From contig NZ_CP070480.1 in the NCBI RefSeq assembly GCF_016924835.1, positions 1,178,001-1,242,000 on the forward strand: a stretch of 64,000 nucleotides of DNA, in the 5' to 3' direction. Below the pieces are notes generated by a model that made no database searches, was not told where the DNA came from, and saw only the letters and a program-made list of their open reading frames with translations. Origin of the DNA: Rothia sp. ZJ932 (GTDB lineage Bacteria > Actinomycetota > Actinomycetes > Actinomycetales > Micrococcaceae). Numbering within the stretch: position 1 is the first letter of the stretch; each line of letters starts with the position of its first letter. Below are positions 5,115 to 20,754 of this stretch, piece by piece. The position numbers and the translations under genes were made by a program.

Positions 5115-7958
5115 TTACATCTGATCGGCGACAACGCCGCGCTTGATGAGACCTATACTTGCTTCGCAGAGGGTTCTCAGATGGGGATCCTGCTGAGAAA
5201 CATGCGCAATCTGATCCAGCGAATCAATAACCTGTTTGATCCAGCGCACAAAATCACCAGCAGCCAAATCAGTGCCCTCCAAAGCCTTAGAGAGGGAATC
5301 CCCGCGTGCCCACTTATATACCGGCCACACCATCCCGAGATCAGGCGCAGGGGTCTGCGGTAGCTTGAACCGCTGCTCAGCATCATTAAGCTTGCTCCAC
5401 TGCGTAATGAGAGTGGTAATGGATGATTCGATGTCAGGACGCGGGTAACGACTGAGCAAACCACCGTCATCTCGTTTGCCCTGATAGACCACCGCAGAAA
5501 CAACGGCAGCCGCTGACGCTGAGTCTAGCGCGTCCATAAAGCCTTTTTCGAGGCACAGTGAGGTCAGGAGATCCTTTTCACCGTAGATACGACGCAGGCT
5601 TCTGCCTTGAGGAGTGAGCGAAACAGACCCGTCTTCACCCTGCTCTACATAACCATAGGATGCCAGCAGATCCGTAATGCGGTTAAAGACCTGCGAGATG
5701 GTATTAGTACGGCGGGAAATCTGCCGACGCAGACCATCCGTCTCGCGGTCCAGCTTCCACCAGCGCTCAGCCCAGCGTGCGTGGTCCTCACGCTCAGAGC
5801 AGCCGTGACAGGGATGCTGACGCAGAGCCTGGCGCATCTGCTCAAGTTTCGCGTAATCAGGAGATTCTTTATGATCGAACCAGGTGTTCTGCGCTCGCTC
5901 ACGCGGAGGAATGTTCTTGTAGAGCGCCTCACGCATACGAGAAGCCATATCGCGACGTTCCTTGGGGGTTTTACCCTGCCATTTTTTGGGTACCTTGATT
6001 TTAGAAACAGGCACAATCGGTCCCACCAAATCGCGCACATCAAGGCGACGGATGTGGGCGTCAATCGTCAAGATGGACGGGCGGGGGTCATCATTCGACT
6101 CGGCACGGGTTAGTACTACTGCCTCTCCCCTGTTTTTACCGCGGGGAATTTCGATGACATCTCCGGGCACTAGCTGCTGCAAAGAAGCAATGGACTGCGA
6201 TAATGAGAGCTTTTTGCGGCTTTTTTCCACTGATTTTTCAAGTTCTTTAATATCCCTGCGAAGACGCGCGTAGTCGGTAAAATCGCCCAGATGGCATTCC
6301 ATGGACGCAGTATACCCTTCAAGAGCACGCTCGTTTTTACGCACACGCTGGGCGATGCCCACCACTGACTTATCAGCTTGAAACTGGGCGAAAGAGGATT
6401 CTAGGATTTTACGGGTACGCTCGGCCCCAAACTGTGCGATGAGGTTCGCGCTCATGTTGTAGGTGGGACGGAAGGAAGAGTTCAGCGGGTATGTACGGCG
6501 CGAAGCCAAACCTGCAACCTGTTCAGCCTGCATACCGGGGCGCCACATCACCACCGCGTGCCCCTCGACATCAATGCCGCGGCGTCCCGCGCGTCCTGTC
6601 AGCTGAGTGTACTCACCGGGGGTAATGTCCACATGGTTTTCGCCATTAAACTTGGTGAGCTTCTCAAGCACCACGGAACGGGCGGGCATGTTAATACCCA
6701 GCGCCAGAGTCTCCGTTGCAAAAACCACCTTAATGAGACCCTCAGAGAAAAGAGTCTCAACAATTTCCTTGAAAACAGGGAGCAAACCGGCGTGGTGAGC
6801 AGCTACACCGCGAGTGAGCCCCTCACGCCATTCGTAGAATCCCAGCACCTTGAGATCTCGGACGTCCAAGGACGCGGTCGCCTCAGCAATGTAGGCGCGG
6901 ATGGTTTGCGCTTGGGCTTCAGTAGTCAGCCGAATATCAGCGTCGATGCACTGCGATACTGCGCCATCACACCCAGCACGAGAGAATATAAAGCAAATAG
7001 CCGGTAGCAGACCGTTCGCGTCGAGTGTTTCAATCATTGCCGGACGCGAAATACGAGCTGGCATAGACGGCGGCGAAGAAAAACCGCTTACCGACGTATT
7101 GAGAGCTGCACCTCGACGGTCTCTGGGACCACGGCGACGACCGCGCTGATGGGGCGCTCGCGGACGAGCGCGTGAGGGCCGCCCTCTATGGGTACGCATC
7201 TTAAGTAGCTCGGGGTTAACCGCAGGTGCATCATCAGACTTATTGCTGAGAGCATCAGCCGCTTCTCCTACGGTGGTTTCTTCAGCGAAGAGGTCCACCA
7301 GGCGCTTACCAGCCAACACGTGCTGCCACAGGGGCACTGGGCGGTGTTCAGAGACAATAACATCGGTGCTACCACGCACGGTATCAAGCCAGGCACCGAA
7401 CTCCTCAACGTTCGATACTGTCGCCGAGAGAGAAATGATAGAGATGTGCTCTGGCAGGTGAATAATTACTTCTTCCCACACTGCCCCGCGAAAGCGGTCA
7501 GCCAGGTAATGAACCTCATCCATAACCACAAAAGCGAGGTTATTCAGGGTTGAAGAGTCTGCATAAAGCATATTACGCAGAACTTCGGTGGTCATGACCA
7601 CCACCGGCGCCTCAGAATTAATGGAGGTGTCACCGGTCAGTAGACCCACGGCATCTTCGCCGTACTGCTCTACCAGGTCATTGTATTTCTGATTGCTCAG
7701 CGCCTTGATGGGGGTAGTATAAAAAGCCTTTTTTCCCTGGGCAAGGGCGCAGTGAATAGCGAATTCACCCACGATGGTTTTGCCCGCACCGGTGGGGGCA
7801 GCTACCAGCACCCCGCGTCCTGCTTCAACGCTGCGGCAGGCCTCTTTCTGAAAAGTATCAAGCTCAAAACCCAACTGGGATTCAAAAATGCCGAGCTGCG
7901 TTTTAGAATGGGCAGCTCGTTCTTTAGCGTGACGGTAGCGTTCTGCATAGATAGACAT
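5115..7958 (-). CDS. helY: Ski2-like DEAD/DEAH-box RNA helicase (HelY type)
   Basis: A 947-residue superfamily 2 helicase. Motifs visible are Walker A AAPTGAGKT at residues 53-61, DEVH at 147-150, SAT at 178-180 and the late QLTGRAGRRG motif VI. The C-terminal 180 residues form the DSHCT domain of Ski2/Mtr4-type helicases. Between the two RecA domains is an arginine-rich, proline-rich stretch at about residues 255-285, likely disordered. The closest characterised relatives are mycobacterial HelY and yeast Ski2; the RNA substrate in bacteria is unclear. It lies downstream of tatA-tatC, a common actinobacterial arrangement. Confidence 0.92.
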   Translation of the reverse strand: MSIYAERYRHAKERAAHSKTQLGIFESQLGFELDTFQKEACRSVEAGRGVLVAAPTGAGKTIVGEFAIHCALAQGKKAFYTTPIKALSNQKYNDLVEQYGEDAVGLLTGDTSINSEAPVVVMTTEVLRNMLYADSSTLNNLAFVVMDEVHYLADRFRGAVWEEVIIHLPEHISIISLSATVSNVEEFGAWLDTVRGSTDVIVSEHRPVPLWQHVLAGKRLVDLFAEETTVGEAADALSNKSDDAPAVNPELLKMRTHRGRPSRARPRAPHQRGRRRGPRDRRGAALNTSVSGFSSPPSMPARISRPAMIETLDANGLLPAICFIFSRAGCDGAVSQCIDADIRLTTEAQAQTIRAYIAEATASLDVRDLKVLGFYEWREGLTRGVAAHHAGLLPVFKEIVETLFSEGLIKVVFATETLALGINMPARSVVLEKLTKFNGENHVDITPGEYTQLTGRAGRRGIDVEGHAVVMWRPGMQAEQVAGLASRRTYPLNSSFRPTYNMSANLIAQFGAERTRKILESSFAQFQADKSVVGIAQRVRKNERALEGYTASMECHLGDFTDYARLRRDIKELEKSVEKSRKKLSLSQSIASLQQLVPGDVIEIPRGKNRGEAVVLTRAESNDDPRPSILTIDAHIRRLDVRDLVGPIVPVSKIKVPKKWQGKTPKERRDMASRMREALYKNIPPRERAQNTWFDHKESPDYAKLEQMRQALRQHPCHGCSEREDHARWAERWWKLDRETDGLRRQISRRTNTISQVFNRITDLLASYGYVEQGEDGSVSLTPQGRSLRRIYGEKDLLTSLCLEKGFMDALDSASAAAVVSAVVYQGKRDDGGLLSRYPRPDIESSITTLITQWSKLNDAEQRFKLPQTPAPDLGMVWPVYKWARGDSLSKALEGTDLAAGDFVRWIKQVIDSLDQIAHVSQQDPHLRTLCEASIGLIKRGVVADQM

Positions 7959-9748: not shown

Positions 9749-11605
9749 TTATATCTGAGGGTCAAAAAGGCTCTCGGGGTTGCCATTTTCTGTTGCACAG
9801 TAAGCACGTAACGAGTGCGGTTCGATGATTTCAAGTTCCCCATACGATGAAAGGATAAGCTCCATGAACCAGCTGGGGTTAAACACATCAAAAGAAAAGT
9901 AGTCGCCTGATACTTGATTGCTGTGGCGCTGACATAGTTGGCGGTGGTAGGTGCCGGGTAAGTGGGCTTTGACGATGGCGGTGAAGGACGCGCGTGCATC
10001 CGGTGCAGTCTCGATGTGATGGGCTGGGGGTAGCTGTTCTTGCTGAGAAGTGAGGCTTATTCCGCTCAGTCGGAAAGTTCTTTCAGCATCACGCAGTAAG
10101 CACTGGGCGCGAACGTAAAGTTCGCCATCAACCATACGAAGTTCCAGGGGTTTGATACGGCGATAAGTGGTTGATGTACCCGTTGAATAGGTGATGTCGA
10201 CGGTCTCACGCCGCTCCAGAGCGGCAATCAGCCAGGCAGGAGCGCTGTCATCGGCGATAACAGCTATTTGGTGTGAAAGACGCTCCCCCTGTGCAGAAAG
10301 CTGCACTAACTTACCTTCAAGCTGACGCAGGATTTTCGTTTCAGGCATGACCGCACCCAATGCGCGCAGTGCCAGCAAAAGATAAATAATTTCCTCCGTA
10401 GACAATGGTGCTGCAGTACGCAAATGCTGTACTGCCTCCATACGCTGCACCTGATCGTGGGTGAGATTTAAACTTACGCTCTGTTCATCAGCGGAGATCC
10501 ACAGTAGGTTGAGGGCGCGCACCACCTCAGCACGGGTGACTGCGAAACGTTCAGCGATATCCTTCACGCTCACGGGGGCGTTTTCAAACGCGAACTCCGC
10601 GTAGTTAAGGATGCGCACAAACAGCTCCGCCGCGTCCGCCCGGGTACGCGGTGCCCCGTGCTCTTCCCATCTCATAGATGAGGTATCGCAGGGTTCACTC
10701 CCCCGGTGTCTGCCTGCCACCGCGGCTTTCATCGTGCGGCAACGCTCCCTCATGCTCAACTGTATGTGATCGTCGAAAACCTGTTGAGCTGGTATATCAG
10801 CGGGGCGATTCGGCTCAACAGTAGCCCCCGACAGTAGGATGCGTGCTGCCGCTTTATCTGCTACCACGGCGGGAATGCTCAAAAGCTCACCATGACGACG
10901 TAGCCACACTCGAGGAACAGGGATTGAAGCAATGCCTTGTAGATAGTCGTAAGCAGAAAAAGAGCCATCAGCAGACCGGTAGGTTCCAGCAGTTAAAGCC
11001 GCTTTGGTGAAGCGGTCTAGGCGATAGACCCGAGGCTGACGCTCGGTCGCTTCAACCCCCATGCAGTACCAGGTGCCGAAGGTAAAGCCTATGCCCCAGA
11101 TGGATGTCCTGCGACTGCGCGTCTCACCACGAGCGTTAGTGTAATCGAAGCTCAACACCTTCTGCTCAGCTAGCGCCTCAATCACCTGCTCCAAATAAGG
11201 TGCCTGCTTAAACACAACCTCAGAGTGCCCATTGGCACTCTGGGTCTGTTCAACACCTAGTTTGGCAAGTGCCCGCTCCACAGAGCGGTGAGCTACGCCC
11301 TCCTGCCAGCTCGCGGCAGCCAGCGATAGCAACGAAAGATCTACAACAGATAAATGGTGAGCGCTCCCTTTGGCATGCTCAATGCGATACAGCGTTTCAA
11401 CCCCCACCTTAGACGTCACCAGGGTGTACCCCAGCTTGCGCAGAGAATCCTTATCTCGCTCAAACGTCCGTTCGAAGGCGGCCGTTGATGGTGCGTTACG
11501 GTACGACGTGATGGTATCACGTATCTGTGCGCGCGATAATCCAACCTCACTGGCGGCAAGCACGTTCAAAACGCCCAGCAACCGCTCAACACTGCTTCTA
11601 CTCAT
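9749..11605 (-). CDS. pafBC: Single-chain PafBC transcriptional activator (two WYL modules)
   Basis: Activator of the LexA/RecA-independent DNA-damage response. Many actinobacteria encode PafB and PafC as two genes; here both are in one 618-residue protein. The first half has a winged-helix domain (SVERLLGVLNVLAASEVGLSR, residues about 4-70) and a WYL domain with GIGFTFGTWYCMGVEA. The second half repeats the plan from about residue 320 (ELFVRILNYAEFAFENAPV) and ends in another WYL-like domain. A natural fusion of this kind is known from Arthrobacter. The gene lies just downstream of the FKBP and pupylation genes, its usual context, although its function is not pupylation itself. Confidence 0.92.
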   Translation of the reverse strand: MSRSSVERLLGVLNVLAASEVGLSRAQIRDTITSYRNAPSTAAFERTFERDKDSLRKLGYTLVTSKVGVETLYRIEHAKGSAHHLSVVDLSLLSLAAASWQEGVAHRSVERALAKLGVEQTQSANGHSEVVFKQAPYLEQVIEALAEQKVLSFDYTNARGETRSRRTSIWGIGFTFGTWYCMGVEATERQPRVYRLDRFTKAALTAGTYRSADGSFSAYDYLQGIASIPVPRVWLRRHGELLSIPAVVADKAAARILLSGATVEPNRPADIPAQQVFDDHIQLSMRERCRTMKAAVAGRHRGSEPCDTSSMRWEEHGAPRTRADAAELFVRILNYAEFAFENAPVSVKDIAERFAVTRAEVVRALNLLWISADEQSVSLNLTHDQVQRMEAVQHLRTAAPLSTEEIIYLLLALRALGAVMPETKILRQLEGKLVQLSAQGERLSHQIAVIADDSAPAWLIAALERRETVDITYSTGTSTTYRRIKPLELRMVDGELYVRAQCLLRDAERTFRLSGISLTSQQEQLPPAHHIETAPDARASFTAIVKAHLPGTYHRQLCQRHSNQVSGDYFSFDVFNPSWFMELILSSYGELEIIEPHSLRAYCATENGNPESLFDPQI

Positions 11606-13265: not shown

Positions 13266-14702
13266 TTAGATAAAGGGCGGTGCCCACGAGCTGGTGGGTT
13301 TCACATCGTTGAGAACCTTGATGAGCTCATCAACGCTGGTGGACTCGGTGGCAAAGGGATCTTTGCAAACCGCCGTGAACTGGGGGTAAGCATTAAGTTT
13401 CAGGTGTACCCAGTCCACTGTGAACTGTTCCCCCGCCGCTCGTGCCGCATTGATGAACTCACCACGAATACGTGCGCGAGTGTGTGGCGGTTCTAGTGCC
13501 GCCTGGGCAATTGCCTCAGCAGACACTACTGAACGTACGCGTCCTTTCTTCGCCAAAATATTGAAAACGCCGCGGGTCTGGTCAATATCGTGGTAGGCAA
13601 GATCAAGCTGAGCAATCTTGGGGTCACCGTAACCACGTGCTACACCCTCGATGATATAGGTATCCAGAAGTTTTTTCTTAATTGCCCAGTCAATTTCGGT
13701 ATCAATAGCGCTAAAATCTTGGGATTCGATGGCGTCAAGCGCGCGTTGCCACAAATCTAGAATATAGGGCACGTCCTCATGGTGGGCGCCGTGTTGCTCG
13801 ATGTAGGCAGTAGCGCTAGCTAAATAATGACGCTGCATCTCAAGGGCGCTGCGTCGAGAACCATCAGCCAGCATGAAATAAGCCGTACCCGTCAGATCAT
13901 GGGAGATGGTTCGTAGCGCTGTGGCGGTGTCTTTGATTTCGTAATCGTTGAGGGGGTAACGATCTTCTAGCATGCGCAGCACAATGTCGGTGGCACCCAT
14001 TTTGAGAAGAGTGGTGGTCTGCGACATGTTTGAATCGCCGTTGATTACGTGCAATCGGCGGTAGAGCTGCGCGTCTGCGTGAGGTTCATCGCGGGTATTA
14101 ATGAGTGGACGCGAGCGTGTGGTAGCAGTGGATGACCCCTCCCAGATGTAGTCTGCTCGCTGGGAGAAAGAGTAGCTGGAGTCTTGGCTCAGGGCCTCTG
14201 CAGTACCCCATGAAGGCGGGCCCTGGCGGTGAGTTTTGCCCGCGCCCACTAGAATTTGGCGGGTCACCAAAAAAGGAATGAGAGAACGCACGAGCTTAGC
14301 GAACTCTACTTTGCGTGAGAGCATGTAGTTTTCGTGAGAACCGTAAGAGTTATCGGCTGAATCAACATTGTTCTTGAAAAGATAAAGGTGCCCGGTCAGT
14401 CCCTCTTCCTGTAAGTGGTCTTCTGCCTGATTGACCAAATCGTTGAAGAGATACTCGCCTGCCTTATCGTGGGCGATCAGATCTCGCATGCTGGCGCACT
14501 CGGCGGTGGCGTATTCGGGATGAGATCCCACATCGAGGTATAGCCGTGAGCCATTGGGCAAAAAAACATTGGTGGAACGCCACGAATCGACTACAGGTTT
14601 GAAAAGTTTACGCGCTGCCTCCTCCGGCCCCAAATGACCGACCCCCTGGGGGCTGTAGCGGATTCCAAACTCCGTTTCGATACCAAAAATTCTGCGTTCC
14701 AC
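13266..14702 (-). CDS. pafA: Pup-protein ligase PafA
   Basis: Joins the C-terminal glutamate of deamidated Pup to lysines of target proteins using ATP; related to glutamine synthetase. The 478-residue protein begins with the ATP/metal loop RRIFGIETEFGIRYSP (glutamates 9 and 11) and has the conserved HPEYATAECAS, FKNNVDSADNSYGSHENY and RRLHVINGDSNMSQ segments. Start is GTG at 14700-14702. It follows pup directly with a 54-base gap; the proteasome genes prcB and prcA that usually lie between them are absent. Confidence 0.97.
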   Translation of the reverse strand: MERRIFGIETEFGIRYSPQGVGHLGPEEAARKLFKPVVDSWRSTNVFLPNGSRLYLDVGSHPEYATAECASMRDLIAHDKAGEYLFNDLVNQAEDHLQEEGLTGHLYLFKNNVDSADNSYGSHENYMLSRKVEFAKLVRSLIPFLVTRQILVGAGKTHRQGPPSWGTAEALSQDSSYSFSQRADYIWEGSSTATTRSRPLINTRDEPHADAQLYRRLHVINGDSNMSQTTTLLKMGATDIVLRMLEDRYPLNDYEIKDTATALRTISHDLTGTAYFMLADGSRRSALEMQRHYLASATAYIEQHGAHHEDVPYILDLWQRALDAIESQDFSAIDTEIDWAIKKKLLDTYIIEGVARGYGDPKIAQLDLAYHDIDQTRGVFNILAKKGRVRSVVSAEAIAQAALEPPHTRARIRGEFINAARAAGEQFTVDWVHLKLNAYPQFTAVCKDPFATESTSVDELIKVLNDVKPTSSWAPPFI

Positions 14703-14756
14703 GAATGCTGTGCTCTCTCTAGGTGCGTAATGAGGTCAAGACGGTAACCGAGTCGG

Positions 14757-14957
14757 TTACTGACCACCCTTTTGAATGAAACCGCGAACGAACTCTTCAG
14801 CGTTTTCCTCGAGCACGCCGTCGATTTCAGCTAAAAGATCATCAACCTCAAGCAACAGGTCTTCATCAACAGCCGCGGTGGCTTGCGCCAGCTCAAAGTC
14901 TTCAGTTTCCTGAGGGCTCTGCTGGGCTGACAGTGCTTGAACTTTTTTCTGTTCCAC
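14757..14957 (-). CDS. pup: Prokaryotic ubiquitin-like protein Pup
   Basis: A 66-residue, acidic, intrinsically disordered modifier. It has the conserved C-terminal half with DLLLEVDDLLAEIDGVLEENAEEFVR, here named only by its ends (residues about 33-58), and the ending GGQ. The terminal glutamine must be deamidated to glutamate by Dop before PafA can attach it. The N-terminal half (residues 1-30), which engages the Mpa pore, is rich in glutamine, as usual. Located between dop and pafA. Confidence 0.97.
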   Translation of the reverse strand: MEQKKVQALSAQQSPQETEDFELAQATAAVDEDLLLEVDDLLAEIDGVLEENAEEFVRGFIQKGGQ

Positions 14958-14997
14958 AGGTTTTTTCTCTCTTTTCTTGAATATCAGACAGGTAGTT

Positions 14998-16587
14998 TTA
15001 GTGAGTAACAGCGTGAGCGCCTAAGGCTCGCATCAGCCCTTCGGAGCTTTCATCAGCCAAATAGGGTTCGATCTCTGCGCGAGTAAGGCTCAAAGGCTCA
15101 TCCATCGTTAAACGATAGGTCACGATATCTAGAGGGTTACGAGTGACTATCGTATCCCAGCTTGCCGAGACAACTTCGTGCTGCCAGATCTCCACAATCT
15201 TCCCTCGAAGGTATGCGCGCGTATCATGAGGCGGTTGGTGCGCTGCCTGACGAATCTGCTCTTCTGTGAAGAGCGTTTTCATCTTGCCCAGGGCAATCAG
15301 TTTGAAATACAGCCCCTTATCGGGGCGCACATCAGAGTACTGAATATCGATAGCTCGCATTTTGGGGTTATCCCAGCTGACACCCTTATTTACGTAGGCT
15401 CGCATGAGGTTATACTTCGCTACCCAATCCAGAGTATCTGCAAGGCTCAGTGGGTTCTGCTCTAGAGCGTCCAGTACCTCCTGCCACAGTGTCAGGACGC
15501 GGGCAGTCATCTCATCGGGGTGAGGATTGGCCTGACGGGCTACGGCAAGAAAAGTTTTTTGAATCTCCACAGCAGTTGTAGAGCTACCATCGCTGAGCTT
15601 CACCGGAGCCTTCATCGACAGATCACGGCTCACCGCGTGCATAGCTGCTACCGGATCAGCCAAGCGAAACACCGGAGCCACCTTCTGCTCAATCGCATCC
15701 AACACCAAAGCCACGGTACCAAACTTCAAAAGATTAGAAGTGTGCGAAAGGTTCGCATCCCCCGTAATCACGTGCAAACGGCGGTATTTCTCACGATCCG
15801 CGTGCGGCTCATCGCGGGTATTCACCAAAGGTCTGCGAATGGTAGTTTCCAAACCCACTAACCGCTCAAAGAAGTCCGCCCGAGACGATATCTGAAAACC
15901 CGCCTGCTCACCGCTGGCACCCAAGCCCACGCGTCCTGCACCCGTATAAATAATGCGGGTTGCGAAAAACGGCGCTAGCACCAAGGTCAGATACTCGAAA
16001 TCAACACCGCGATCTACCAGGTAATTCTCATGAGAACCATAAGACTGACCTTTGCCATCAGTGTTGTTCTTATAAAGGTGAATAGGCTCAACCCCAGTAT
16101 TCTGCGCTGAACGCGCCAGAGCATCCACCGTCTCAGCGGCAATAAAGTCACCGGCAGCATCCCACAGTACAGCATCAAACGGGTTCGTCACCTCAGGTGA
16201 TGAGTACTCGGGGTGAGCATGATCCACATATAGACGGGCACCGTTGGGAAGAATCGAGTTCATGGTGACTTTATCCCAATCCAACCGCTCAGCATACATC
16301 CCCGATTCACGCAAAGCCTCAGCAGCAATATCCTCACTCGTGAGCACATATGCCTCATCGGTCAGCTGCGACTCATGCGCCAGCTCACGCTGCATAGCGA
16401 AACCGCGCGCGTCCTCCAGGGGCTGCTCAGAATCGTATTCCCACTGCGCTCGCTGGGCAGTTCTAAAAACCATCGCATTATAAGTATTCACGATGGTTGC
16501 AGAAAGTACCGTGTGGTTAGCTTCGGGGGTCGTTGGTGCAATCACACCGAACTCGGTCTCTGCCCCCATCACCCGCTGAACGCCCAT
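14998..16587 (-). CDS. dop: Deamidase/depupylase Dop
   Basis: Converts the C-terminal glutamine of Pup to glutamate and also removes Pup from substrates. The 529-residue protein is a PafA homologue with the loop MGAETEFGV (glutamates 10 and 12), HPEYSSPEVTNP, YKNNTDGKGQSYGSHENY and RRLHVITGDANLSHTSN. It is longer than PafA, with the Dop-specific N-terminal insertion after residue 40. It starts four bases after the mpa stop, its ribosome site lying inside the end of mpa, so the two are translated from one message. Confidence 0.97.
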   Translation of the reverse strand: MGVQRVMGAETEFGVIAPTTPEANHTVLSATIVNTYNAMVFRTAQRAQWEYDSEQPLEDARGFAMQRELAHESQLTDEAYVLTSEDIAAEALRESGMYAERLDWDKVTMNSILPNGARLYVDHAHPEYSSPEVTNPFDAVLWDAAGDFIAAETVDALARSAQNTGVEPIHLYKNNTDGKGQSYGSHENYLVDRGVDFEYLTLVLAPFFATRIIYTGAGRVGLGASGEQAGFQISSRADFFERLVGLETTIRRPLVNTRDEPHADREKYRRLHVITGDANLSHTSNLLKFGTVALVLDAIEQKVAPVFRLADPVAAMHAVSRDLSMKAPVKLSDGSSTTAVEIQKTFLAVARQANPHPDEMTARVLTLWQEVLDALEQNPLSLADTLDWVAKYNLMRAYVNKGVSWDNPKMRAIDIQYSDVRPDKGLYFKLIALGKMKTLFTEEQIRQAAHQPPHDTRAYLRGKIVEIWQHEVVSASWDTIVTRNPLDIVTYRLTMDEPLSLTRAEIEPYLADESSEGLMRALGAHAVTH

Positions 16588-16591
16588 AGTG

Positions 16592-18268
16592 TTACTCCCC
16601 CCGCCCGGAACGAACCGGTGAGGCGCTCAAAAAGCGCAGGCGCAAGTTCTTCTGAGCCAGAACGTCCTCAATCTCAGCAGCCTGGGGAACATCGACCTGA
16701 TCCTCAAACTCAGCGCGGATTGCCTCTAGCACATGCTCCGCTCTCAAACCCCGTGAACCGGTTGCCAAGAAGTCTTTAATAGCCTGCTTCTTAGCGTTAT
16801 CAACAATATTGCGAATGACGGCGCCCGAGAGGAAGTCACCCCGGTAGAGCCAACGGGAAATGCCGTTCTCGAACTCCACGCTGATATAGCGGTTGAACTC
16901 ATCAAATGAATAGAGAGAATTGACCGCGCGGTCAATAATGGATTCCAGTGCCACCTGCGCCGAACCTGCACGCTCAACCTCAGACTCGTGTACCGGTAGC
17001 TCTGAGTTCAGGTAAAGCCCAAAGATTTCGCGCGCACCAGCGGCATCGGGGCGGTTAATGCGGATTTTCACATCAAGACGCCCCGGACGCAGCACGGCGG
17101 GGTCAATCATATCCTCGCGGTTGGTAGCGCCAATAACAATGACGTTATCGAGCCTTTCCACACCGTCAATTTCAGCCAGAAGCTGCGGAACAATGGTCGT
17201 TTCAACGTCGGATGAACGCCCAGAACCACGGGTACGGAAGAGCGATTCCATCTCGTCGAAGAAGACCACCACCGGATTACCCTCGGCTGCTTTTTCGCGG
17301 GCTGCACGGAAGATATCGCGAATCTGACGCTCAGTTTCACCCACAAACTTATCGAGCAGTTCCGGGCCCTTAATGTTCAGGAAGTAACCGGTCGTTGAGC
17401 CATCCTTGCTCAGCTCAGCAGCCCGGTGAGCCAGTGAATTAGCCACCGCCTTGGCAATGAGGGTCTTACCGTTACCCGGAGGACCATACAACAAAATACC
17501 CTTGGGCGGAGTCAGGTGGTACTCACGGTAAACCTCAGGATGCAAGAAGGGCAACTCCACGGCGTCCTGAATCTGCTCAATCTGTGAACTCAGACCACCA
17601 ATTTGGCTGTAAGTAATATCGGGAACTTCTTCAAGAATAAGTTCCTGGGCATCAGTCGAAGGCACCACCGCGCGCACCATCGAAACCTTGGAATCGAAGA
17701 TGACAGCGTCCCCGGTAGACAGTTCAGAGCCGCTGACGCTCCCCGCCAAACGGGCAACAGTCTTAGCCTGGTTTGGAAGCTCAACTACTACGTGAGAAGC
17801 ATCAAGAACCTCCCGAACCACCACCACGTCCCCATAGTTCTCATAACCTAAGCTCACCACAGCCTGAGAATGCTCATTGAGCAAAACGGTCATGCCCGGT
17901 TCAACCTCATCGGGGTTCAGCAGCGGTGATAAGGGAAGACGCACCAGGCGTCCGCCCATCAACACATCAAGATAAGGCTCAACCTCAGCAGGGGTTTTAC
18001 CTGACGCCAACTGAGAATAAGTCATCATGCCCCGACCCACCTCAAGCACCACAGCTGAATTAAGCGGCGGTGAAACCTGCTGAGCCATCGCCACGCGCAT
18101 ACGCTCAATCTCAGCCTTGGTCATCTCTAAAGCGCGCACCAGCTTCTGATTCTTCTCACCGGCAACACGCAACTGCCGGTCAAGGTTGCGCCGGTTCTCG
18201 TTGGTGAGATTGAGCTGACGCAAAGCCCTCTGATAATCAGCGGTTGATACCTGGGAGTTCTCGCTCAT
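16592..18268 (-). CDS. mpa: AAA ATPase forming ring-shaped complexes (Mpa/ARC), without proteasome-docking tail
   Basis: Hexameric ATPase that recognises Pup through an N-terminal coiled coil and unfolds pupylated proteins. The 558-residue protein has the coiled coil at residues about 10-62, the OB domains at 70-210, Walker A GPPGNGKT at 262-269, Walker B VVFFDEM ending at 340 and the arginine-finger region ATNREDMIDPAVLRPGR. Proteasome-partnered Mpa/ARC proteins end in GQYL; this one ends in PVRSGRGE with no such motif. With prcBA missing from the locus, this suggests unfolding without degradation by a 20S particle, as proposed in Corynebacterium. Confidence 0.95.
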   Translation of the reverse strand: MSENSQVSTADYQRALRQLNLTNENRRNLDRQLRVAGEKNQKLVRALEMTKAEIERMRVAMAQQVSPPLNSAVVLEVGRGMMTYSQLASGKTPAEVEPYLDVLMGGRLVRLPLSPLLNPDEVEPGMTVLLNEHSQAVVSLGYENYGDVVVVREVLDASHVVVELPNQAKTVARLAGSVSGSELSTGDAVIFDSKVSMVRAVVPSTDAQELILEEVPDITYSQIGGLSSQIEQIQDAVELPFLHPEVYREYHLTPPKGILLYGPPGNGKTLIAKAVANSLAHRAAELSKDGSTTGYFLNIKGPELLDKFVGETERQIRDIFRAAREKAAEGNPVVVFFDEMESLFRTRGSGRSSDVETTIVPQLLAEIDGVERLDNVIVIGATNREDMIDPAVLRPGRLDVKIRINRPDAAGAREIFGLYLNSELPVHESEVERAGSAQVALESIIDRAVNSLYSFDEFNRYISVEFENGISRWLYRGDFLSGAVIRNIVDNAKKQAIKDFLATGSRGLRAEHVLEAIRAEFEDQVDVPQAAEIEDVLAQKNLRLRFLSASPVRSGRGE

Positions 18269-19449: not shown

Positions 19450-20593
19450 TCACCCATCGCGCAGGTAGCGGGATTCGCGGGTCAGAATGCTACCGGCATC
19501 GGCATAGGTAATGACACCCAAAATCCTTTGCGCCTCATTAACTACAGGCCATGCCGCAGGAACCAAACCATTTTTCACTTCAACCGGCTGCTGATCCCAG
19601 ATATACCCGTTGAAATACTCCATGAGGTCATAGCGCAAAGCCGTGTGGGCAATCGCTGGCTCGCCTAGTTCTAGAGCCAACTCCCCCAGTGGCGTAGACT
19701 CAGCGGCACCTTCCAGCAAAGCCTGCGGAACCCACCAGATGCGTCCGCCCGCTACCGGTGAATCAGCAATAACAACAGCTAATCCCCGAGCAGCCTCGTC
19801 CCTCACCACTCCCACCGGAGTCTGCCCACTAAAAAAAAGCGGCAGGACGCATGAGATTAGTCGCTAGCAGAGGGTCGTGACCCACCGCCTGCTGTTTCAA
19901 AACCTTCAAGTGCGCCTGAGCGTTACGCCACAGATAAGACGCCACATAAATCAAAATCACCACGGAGAACAGACTAGAAAGCCAACCTGTCACCACCGCA
20001 AAACCCGCGAGGGCAGGAATCAAAGCCACACCGCACCAGGCAGTTACCCTCACCGCTCTTGATTTAAGACCACCAACCCTATGCACGAACGCTTCTACCG
20101 CGTGCCCACCGTCTAGCGGGTAAGACGGTAGGAGGTTAAAAACAAAAATCGCGAGGTTGGCATCCGACGCCAGATGCAACCCCCACCGAAAAGGCGAAGC
20201 GGGCAAAATCTCCACAAGAACGTACCCCAGCAGGGCAAAGATCAGGTTCACCACCGGTCCAGCCAAAGAAACCAACAAAGAAGTAGTCGGGCTGCCCTGG
20301 GTCAGCTTCGTCAGCCCGCCCCACAGCGTCAGCGAAATAAAAGAAACCCTCTGCCCCCGCGCCACACCCACAGCAGCATGCGCCAACTCATGACAAAAAA
20401 CAGCAAACGCCACAGTGAAAGCAACAGTCGCAGAAACCGTTAGAGCATCGCCCAAACTCACCAAAGGCGAACGATTGAGATAGTAGGCATACCCCACAAC
20501 CACAACCGCCATAAAAATAAACCAAGAAGAACGTAAGTAAATCGGCGCACCAAACACCCTACCCACCTGTACGCCCTGCACCGAAGGTGCCAT
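19450..20593 (-). pseudogene. Site-2-type M50 metalloprotease with C-terminal CBS-like region, frameshifted
   Basis: Intramembrane zinc metalloprotease of the S2P/RseP superfamily. The part up to 19829 has HELAH (residues 68-72 from the ATG at 20593) and the second metal motif NLLPSYPLDGGH. At 19831-19838 the plus strand has eight A; reading seven instead joins the two frames without a stop (PAAFFSGQTPVGVVRDEAARGL). The remaining 120 residues then form the CBS-like C-terminal region. So one base is extra relative to an intact gene. It could be true decay, phase variation or a sequencing error. The start ATG has GGGGGAG just upstream; an upstream start at 20617 lacks one. It lies 107 bases before trmI. 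Confidence 0.85.
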
Positions 20594-20754
20594 ACACTCC
20601 CCCACACTGTCTAACAACTAGCCACCATCTTATGCCCACCCCCATCAACGCACCAAGAGGTTCACCACCCGGTGAACGCACTCCTCAACACGAGCAGTAG
20701 AATCAATACCAGAGTAAAACGACCTATACACAGAACGGACGCAACACTTCATAT

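Follow-up and report, generated by a model that had tools for sequence, protein, structure and literature searches.

A proteasome-free pupylation locus in Rothia and the probable order in which the ARC tail and the 20S proteasome were lost among its relatives

The stretch of DNA analysed here (the window; 64,000 nucleotides from Rothia sp. ZJ932, contig NZ_CP070480.1) carries on its minus strand, at positions 13266-18268, a pupylation locus in the order mpa-dop-pup-pafA. Gene identities rest on NCBIfam equivalog models with curated cut-offs, which all four genes pass (Table 1), and the gene order given in the initial annotation is thereby borne out. Direct reading likewise upheld its two other observations, that only 54 bases separate pup from pafA and that Mpa (hereafter ARC) ends in PVRSGRGE instead of GQYL, the last residues being ...SASPVRSGRGE. 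In relatives that carry the 20S proteasome genes prcB and prcA (prcBA), the interval between pup and pafA measures ~1.48-1.76 kilobases (kb) as against the 54 bases of the Rothia window, in which we recognised no remnant of prcBA by eye. Since Pup ends in GGQ, deamidation by Dop would be needed prior to ligation, as laid out in the available part of the 2012 review PMC3511204.

Table 1. Features of the pupylation locus (window coordinates; aa, amino acids)
Feature	Position	Strand	Description
mpa/ARC	16592..18268	-	558 aa AAA+ Pup-dependent unfoldase without GQYL tail; TIGR03689, 642 bits (cut-off 505)
dop	14998..16587	-	Depupylase/deamidase, 529 aa; TIGR03688, 601 bits (cut-off 492)
pup	14757..14957	-	Prokaryotic ubiquitin-like modifier, 66 aa, C-terminus GGQ; TIGR03687, 64 bits (cut-off 41)
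pup-pafA spacer	14703..14756	-	54 bases at the prcB/prcA site of proteasome-bearing relatives; read directly
pafA	13266..14702	-	Pup ligase, 478 aa, GTG start; TIGR03686, 643 bits (cut-off 551)

The 20S genes do not lie elsewhere in the host as far as profile searches can tell. We ran the whole-genome search for prcA and prcB that the initial annotation had proposed, using the proteasome subunit family PF00227 up to an expectation value (E) of 10, and nothing in the host genome, which is 99.99% complete in 2 contigs, passed the cut-off. A single weak match (locus L001, E 0.012; labels denote loci by L, genomes by G and genus groups by g) was rejected as spurious, the frame reading by eye as an HflX-like GTPase. 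Across the genus (35 genomes, counting the host) the same search matched none; it did match 106 of 197 sampled genomes of the family, so that it is effective in this family. No second Mpa was found, the host giving one TIGR03689 match at E <= 1e-100, and a scan for genes ending in GQYL or GQYF before the stop codon returned no real gene, its sole match being a 12-codon frame ending in GQYF; in a control relative (G099) the scan returned exactly the Mpa and the Bpa of that genome. Neither prcBA nor a second GQYL-ended Mpa, whose joint presence elsewhere had been named at the outset as the threat to a proteasome-free reading, is thus found in the host. The alternative proteasome partner Bpa was found neither with a protein query against the host nor with PF10759 in any of the 35 genus genomes; the control genomes of this last search were silent, yet the model matches 92 of the 197 family genomes.

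Apart from its tail, the ARC protein looks functional in sequence and in predicted structure. All five motor motifs are present, and they are kept in 126-127 of the 127 loci of the survey described below; the corresponding patterns for Dop (50, 126 and 127 of 127) and PafA (122, 122 and 110 of 127) were poor tests and went unused, the low count of the first Dop pattern arising because some translations start behind the motif. An AlphaFold2 model built on 52 aligned ARCs (mean predicted local distance difference test score, pLDDT, 79.5; predicted template-modelling score, pTM, 0.57) has the Mpa fold, with mycobacterial Mpa (7pxd) as its best PDB match (E 8.6e-52, 48% identity). In this model the last C-terminal strand spans residues 546-551, with 7 residues after it, and in the model of a GQYL-bearing relative (L137, mean pLDDT 78.0) the corresponding strand spans 538-543 and is followed by 24 residues ending in GQYL. 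With the strand kept and 7 trailing residues in place of 24, the comparison with proteasome-bearing relatives recommended earlier indicates that it is mainly the linker and GQYL that are missing, and the alignment shows the sequence immediately ahead of the missing tail to be more diverged in Rothia as well.

The rest of the system persists throughout the family. ARC (TIGR03689, E <= 1e-100) occurs in 196 of the 197 family genomes, compared with 106 for PF00227, and of the 91 genomes lacking PF00227 it is present in 90; the sole negative genome, G189, has a completeness of 91% and a contamination of 6%. ARC is therefore retained after the 20S particle disappears. All 13 Rothia genomes of the family sample have it, and among the best 80 of 476 named loci there are 19 titled Rothia, all complete from mpa to pafA, whose ARCs are 60-74% (16 loci) or 54-56% (three loci) identical to that of the window. 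In four Rothia pairs whose dS is below 2, the ratio of nonsynonymous to synonymous substitution rates (dN/dS) for mpa, dop and pafA is 0.016-0.096, and a fifth pair (L018/L020) gives 0.14-0.22; for the pairs window-L014, L010-L011 and L007-L009 dS is saturated or above 2. With the pupylation genes kept, dN/dS of mpa, dop and pafA low in other Rothia, the 20S genes absent as searched and no GQYL-ended gene in the genome, the system has to work in the absence of a Pup-dependent proteasome. As a side observation, Pup ends in GGE rather than GGQ in three other Rothia loci (L007, L015 and L016), so that how far Dop is required as a deamidase may vary inside one genus.

How tail and 20S genes are distributed relative to one another was surveyed in 136 loci, namely the window, the 80 named loci and 55 stretches of family genomes picked so as to represent genera that have PF00227 and genera that do not. 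Nine were dropped since their mpa-to-pafA stretch was unreadable, and the remaining 127 comprise 78 with neither GQYL nor prcBA (among them the Micrococcus-type loci L053, L092 and L093, with the same layout as the Rothia window), 44 with both, four with prcBA and a tail-less ARC, and one with GQYL and no prcBA. These rows are non-independent and partly hand-chosen, and 24 near copies were removed to leave 103 for a tree, on which prcBA requires 9 changes and the tail 6. Among independent pairs differing in prcBA, the tail differs the same way in six, the opposite way in none and not at all in three (sign test 0.031), which bears out the published association of tail and 20S, though not without exceptions. 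Beside these counts stands G077 (g26, L083), a 2.4 Mb genome with no PF00227 and an ARC without GQYL in a group where six of seven sampled genomes have PF00227, a possible case of recent 20S loss with tail truncation. In the short spacers of L009, L083, L085 and L089 nothing was recognisable by eye, the sensitive comparison with PrcA and PrcB having been run on L084 only.

The exceptions are of two kinds. In genus groups g21 (L098, L099, L100) and g2 (L119), prcB and prcA lie between pup and pafA and the ARC is tail-less, ending respectively in QDGATP, QSGQDR, QNGQG and QAATR; a further g21 genome (G167) has a similar tail-less ARC (L127) and prcBA with pafA (L128) on separate contigs, and five others have a similar tail-less ARC and no PF00227. 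The PrcB Thr, Asp and Lys that we take to be catalytic, and the PrcA Lys and Arg that we take to form the docking pocket, are kept in all 50 sequences compared, including five from g2 and g21, and dN/dS of the g21 prcBA, which points to purifying selection, is 0.04-0.11 as against 0.04-0.18 in GQYL-bearing controls (g2 being a single genome). Relaxed selection, considered because the g21 prcBA have long branches, finds no sign in these values. We looked for other partners of the particle: Bpa was absent by profile and by protein query from G001, G093, G110, G155 and G167, no other GQYL-ended gene was found in G001, G093 and G110 (a 61-codon frame of G110 ends in GQYF), and in G001, G093, G110 and G155 the CDC48 family had no match that passed the cut-off. 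This last search was empty in 16 of 16 genomes at a cut-off that may be too strict for Cpa; the matches at E <= 1e-20, present in all 16, were set aside as single-domain frames of FtsH-like length and Mpa. The g2 and g21 genomes thus have a 20S particle without a known docking partner.

The second kind of exception, L084 (genome G008; also L107), has no PF00227 in its genome, and both its ARC and a shortened Bpa still end in GQYL. Its 272-base spacer between pup and pafA contains a frame that ends as a PrcA C-terminus (58% identity over 43 aa, E 5e-12) and whose start weakly resembles the PrcB N-terminus (best E 8e-4). Read in this way the spacer is a putative deletion scar fusing prcB to prcA, a recent loss caught midway and, to judge from these matches, a direct trace of 20S loss in a relative.

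Phylogenies of the locus and of PrcBA bear on the order of these losses. In the 103-row tree, as in a more careful mpa-dop-pafA tree of 39 of those rows, the pairing of the window with Rothia terrae (L014) is fully supported. In the latter, the 21 tail-less rows (Rothia, Kocuria, Micrococcus, g2, g3, g10, g12-g14, g16 and g21) form one clade, with bootstrap and Shimodaira-Hasegawa-like approximate likelihood ratio test (SH-aLRT) values of 99/99, whose sister (88/99) comprises g17, g20, g22, g27, g30 and Glutamicibacter; inside the tail-less clade, two separate sub-clades (100/100 each) unite Rothia with Kocuria and g2/g21 with Micrococcus. A PrcBA tree of 40 of the 50 sequences, ten near copies or incomplete loci having been dropped, joins g2 and g21 in one group (100/99) inside Micrococcaceae (100/100) and places this group as sister to g17/g22/g30 (87/79), which matches its place in the mpa-dop-pafA tree. 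Together with the shared site between pup and pafA, this placement indicates vertical descent of the g2/g21 prcBA, from which it follows that the common ancestor of the tail-less clade still carried prcBA, and the tail would then most simply have been lost there, ahead of the 20S deletions.

By parsimony we infer a single loss of the tail, in the ancestor common to Rothia, Kocuria, Micrococcus and the two prcBA-bearing genera; in the Rothia lineage ARC was thus probably uncoupled before the 20S particle disappeared. The number of 20S deletions in the clade, counted by eye, is about five to seven, seven as the tree is drawn and five with unsupported forks merged. The relatives therefore do not suggest that the ARC tail was lost as a consequence of 20S loss. 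We hold it somewhat better than an even chance that the tail was lost in the ancestor with 20S still encoded, that some five to seven 20S deletions came later, and that g2 and g21 are living intermediates. If so, non-degradative pupylation preceded and allowed proteasome loss rather than resulting from it, and g2 and g21 would be running their 20S particle with an activator yet to be recognised or with none. The order of events is what is new here, the locus itself repeating a published pattern and adding a genus to it; in a literature search that left subscription papers mostly outside, none of the listed entries was, judged by title and the start of the abstract, about pupylation in Rothia or a tail-less ARC beside prcBA.

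Several points weigh against this order. Its main weakness is a regain of prcBA by transfer, since fewest-changes counting alone, in our reading of the 103-row tree, favours one loss of prcBA followed by regain; the tail-first order consequently rests on the PrcBA tree and on same-site synteny, and the sister placement of g2/g21 in that tree is moderately supported (87/79). The tail could also have been lost repeatedly inside the clade, which is conceivable because separate losses occurred outside it, in Glutamicibacter among other lines. Both trees of the locus are flagged for the meeting of long branches (g13 with g10 in the 39-row tree, and also g11 in the 103-row tree) and for unusual sequence composition (L108, L014, L110 and L113 in the 39-row tree; 15 rows in the 103-row tree, including L014, L013, L011 and the g21 rows L099, L123, L125 and L126). 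Apart from the order of events, the low dN/dS values come from other Rothia, the window genes and their nearest named relative having saturated dS.

As to function, we consider it likely that the Rothia locus became proteasome-free by secondary loss of prcBA, with the tail lost first, and that it now serves Pup-directed unfolding with recycling of Pup by Dop. By the proposed mechanism Dop would deamidate Pup-GGQ and PafA would attach Pup to target-protein lysines; the ARC ring would thread the tagged proteins and unfold or remodel them, releasing them on its far side because there is neither a tail nor a 20S particle to dock on; and Dop would strip and recycle Pup. Such unfolding or remodelling is the most likely cellular role by analogy, its non-degradative character being extrapolated from Corynebacterium glutamicum, whose ARC is proposed, in the available parts of PMC8223512 and PMC12288473, to disassemble pupylated ferritin without degradation. 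This is the one precedent worked out so far, and the ferritin model does not simply transfer. The known non-degradative substrate has no counterpart that we found in the host, which weighs against the role favoured here: a search with the ferritin family PF00210 yielded no Ftn or Bfr, and the sole match (L082:1480-1986; host genome C1:426726-427145; 168 aa) reads by eye as Dps, so that a different target must be sought. Dps forms a hollow oligomer and may itself, purely by analogy, be a candidate target.

Other readings of the locus were weighed against the same evidence. Pup could be a reversible mark that blocks, localises or signals, one that PafA attaches and Dop takes off, ARC being only an accessory. 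This agrees with dN/dS values for dop and pafA about as low as for mpa, and with the ability of Dop alone to reverse the tag (available part of PMC3511204), but it hardly explains why an accessory should be present in 90 of the 91 family genomes without PF00227 with near-universal motor motifs, and we regard it as unlikely. Slightly less likely again is that ARC passes tagged proteins to another peptidase, ClpP1P2 or some other, and that pupylation is still degradative; neither the motor motifs nor the predicted strand ahead of the tail has been lost, and further peptidases are to be expected in any actinobacterium, but no PF00227 peptidase (a family that includes HslV) passed the cut-off in the host and by eye we recognised no compartment-forming peptidase in or beside the locus.

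The two remaining readings are far less probable. A decaying remnant of a proteasome system would fit the loss of 20S, Bpa and tail, as well as the poorer fit of the 13 Rothia ARCs to TIGR03689 (E ~1e-180 to 1e-200) relative to those of PF00227-bearing genomes (~1e-214 to 1e-259); the low dN/dS in Rothia pairs, the presence of ARC in every sampled Rothia and the 19 complete loci leave it very improbable. It is more improbable still that prcBA is present in the host genome and was overlooked: although the two contigs are not stated as closed, the completeness of the genome, the single spurious match up to E 10 and the empty result for the genus, from a search that matches over half the family, speak against it.

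Two FKBP-type isomerases, a 618-aa frame, TatA, TatC and a helicase lie downstream of pafA, and FKBP isomerases, a PafBC-type regulator, TatA, TatC and a helicase are usual neighbours of pupylation loci. The 618-aa frame (9749-11605, minus strand) is single, stands at the place of pafB-pafC and reads by eye as a fused PafBC-type regulator; it had no NCBIfam match at 1e-10. Upstream of mpa, a frame at 19829-20617 (minus strand) resembles by eye an M50-like membrane protease with a HELAH motif. The helicase frame (5115-7958, minus strand) has an Arg/Pro-rich stretch at about residues 265-330 that looks out-of-frame, possibly a local frameshift or insertion.

By its gene content the Rothia locus belongs to a known kind, the proteasome-lacking subgroup of actinobacterial pupylation loci. 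In the available parts of the sources, pup comes immediately ahead of pafA in genomes that have no proteasome genes, and these keep the ATPase without its C-terminal motif (PMC3511204), and a subset of actinobacteria has lost the core genes, C. glutamicum and Micrococcus luteus appearing in the legend of a locus figure (PMC8223512). The claim made at the outset that a few actinobacteria keep pupylation without 20S is right as to their existence and too low as to number, about half of sequenced actinobacteria having lost the core genes according to what is available of the 2019 review PMC6466877, and 91 of our 197 family genomes being without PF00227. What matters around the Rothia locus is that the 20S particle was lost repeatedly across the family while ARC was kept in all genomes but one, and intermediates with 20S and a tail-less ARC, or with the tail and a deleted 20S, open the proteasome-free purpose of pupylation to tests in close relatives whose main differences lie in these components.

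The rule that Bpa strictly co-occurs with 20S, as worded in the available part of PMC8223512, is softened by our counts. Of the 106 family genomes that bear PF00227, fifteen are without a PF10759 match (four each in g21 and g31, three in g15, two in g25, one in g9, and G001 of g2), a sixteenth (G076) has a partial one under the cut-off, and G008 has its shortened Bpa without PF00227. Eight of the fifteen were also queried with a Bpa protein and none was found; fragmented assemblies may explain some of the others.

Compared with the complete Pup-proteasome system of mycobacteria and of Arthrobacter-type loci (L027, L137), the Rothia locus has the same gene order, ARC fold, motor motifs and Dop, Pup and PafA equivalogs, and differs in having no prcB or prcA, no GQYL and no Bpa. 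With the proteasome-lacking loci of the Corynebacterium kind, as far as these are described in the available text, it shares the order arc-dop-pup-pafA, pup directly before pafA, the absence of prcBA and Bpa, and a tail-less ARC; it differs in genus and in its ferritin family, where a Dps-like protein and no Ftn or Bfr was found, so that the iron-release substrate is missing. The g2 and g21 genomes, for their part, resemble Propionibacterium acnes, which according to the available part of PMC4254994 bears 20S without ARC and Bpa, in having a 20S particle with no known docking partner; P. acnes is without ARC altogether, whereas g2 and g21 keep a tail-less ARC and a pupylation locus around prcBA.

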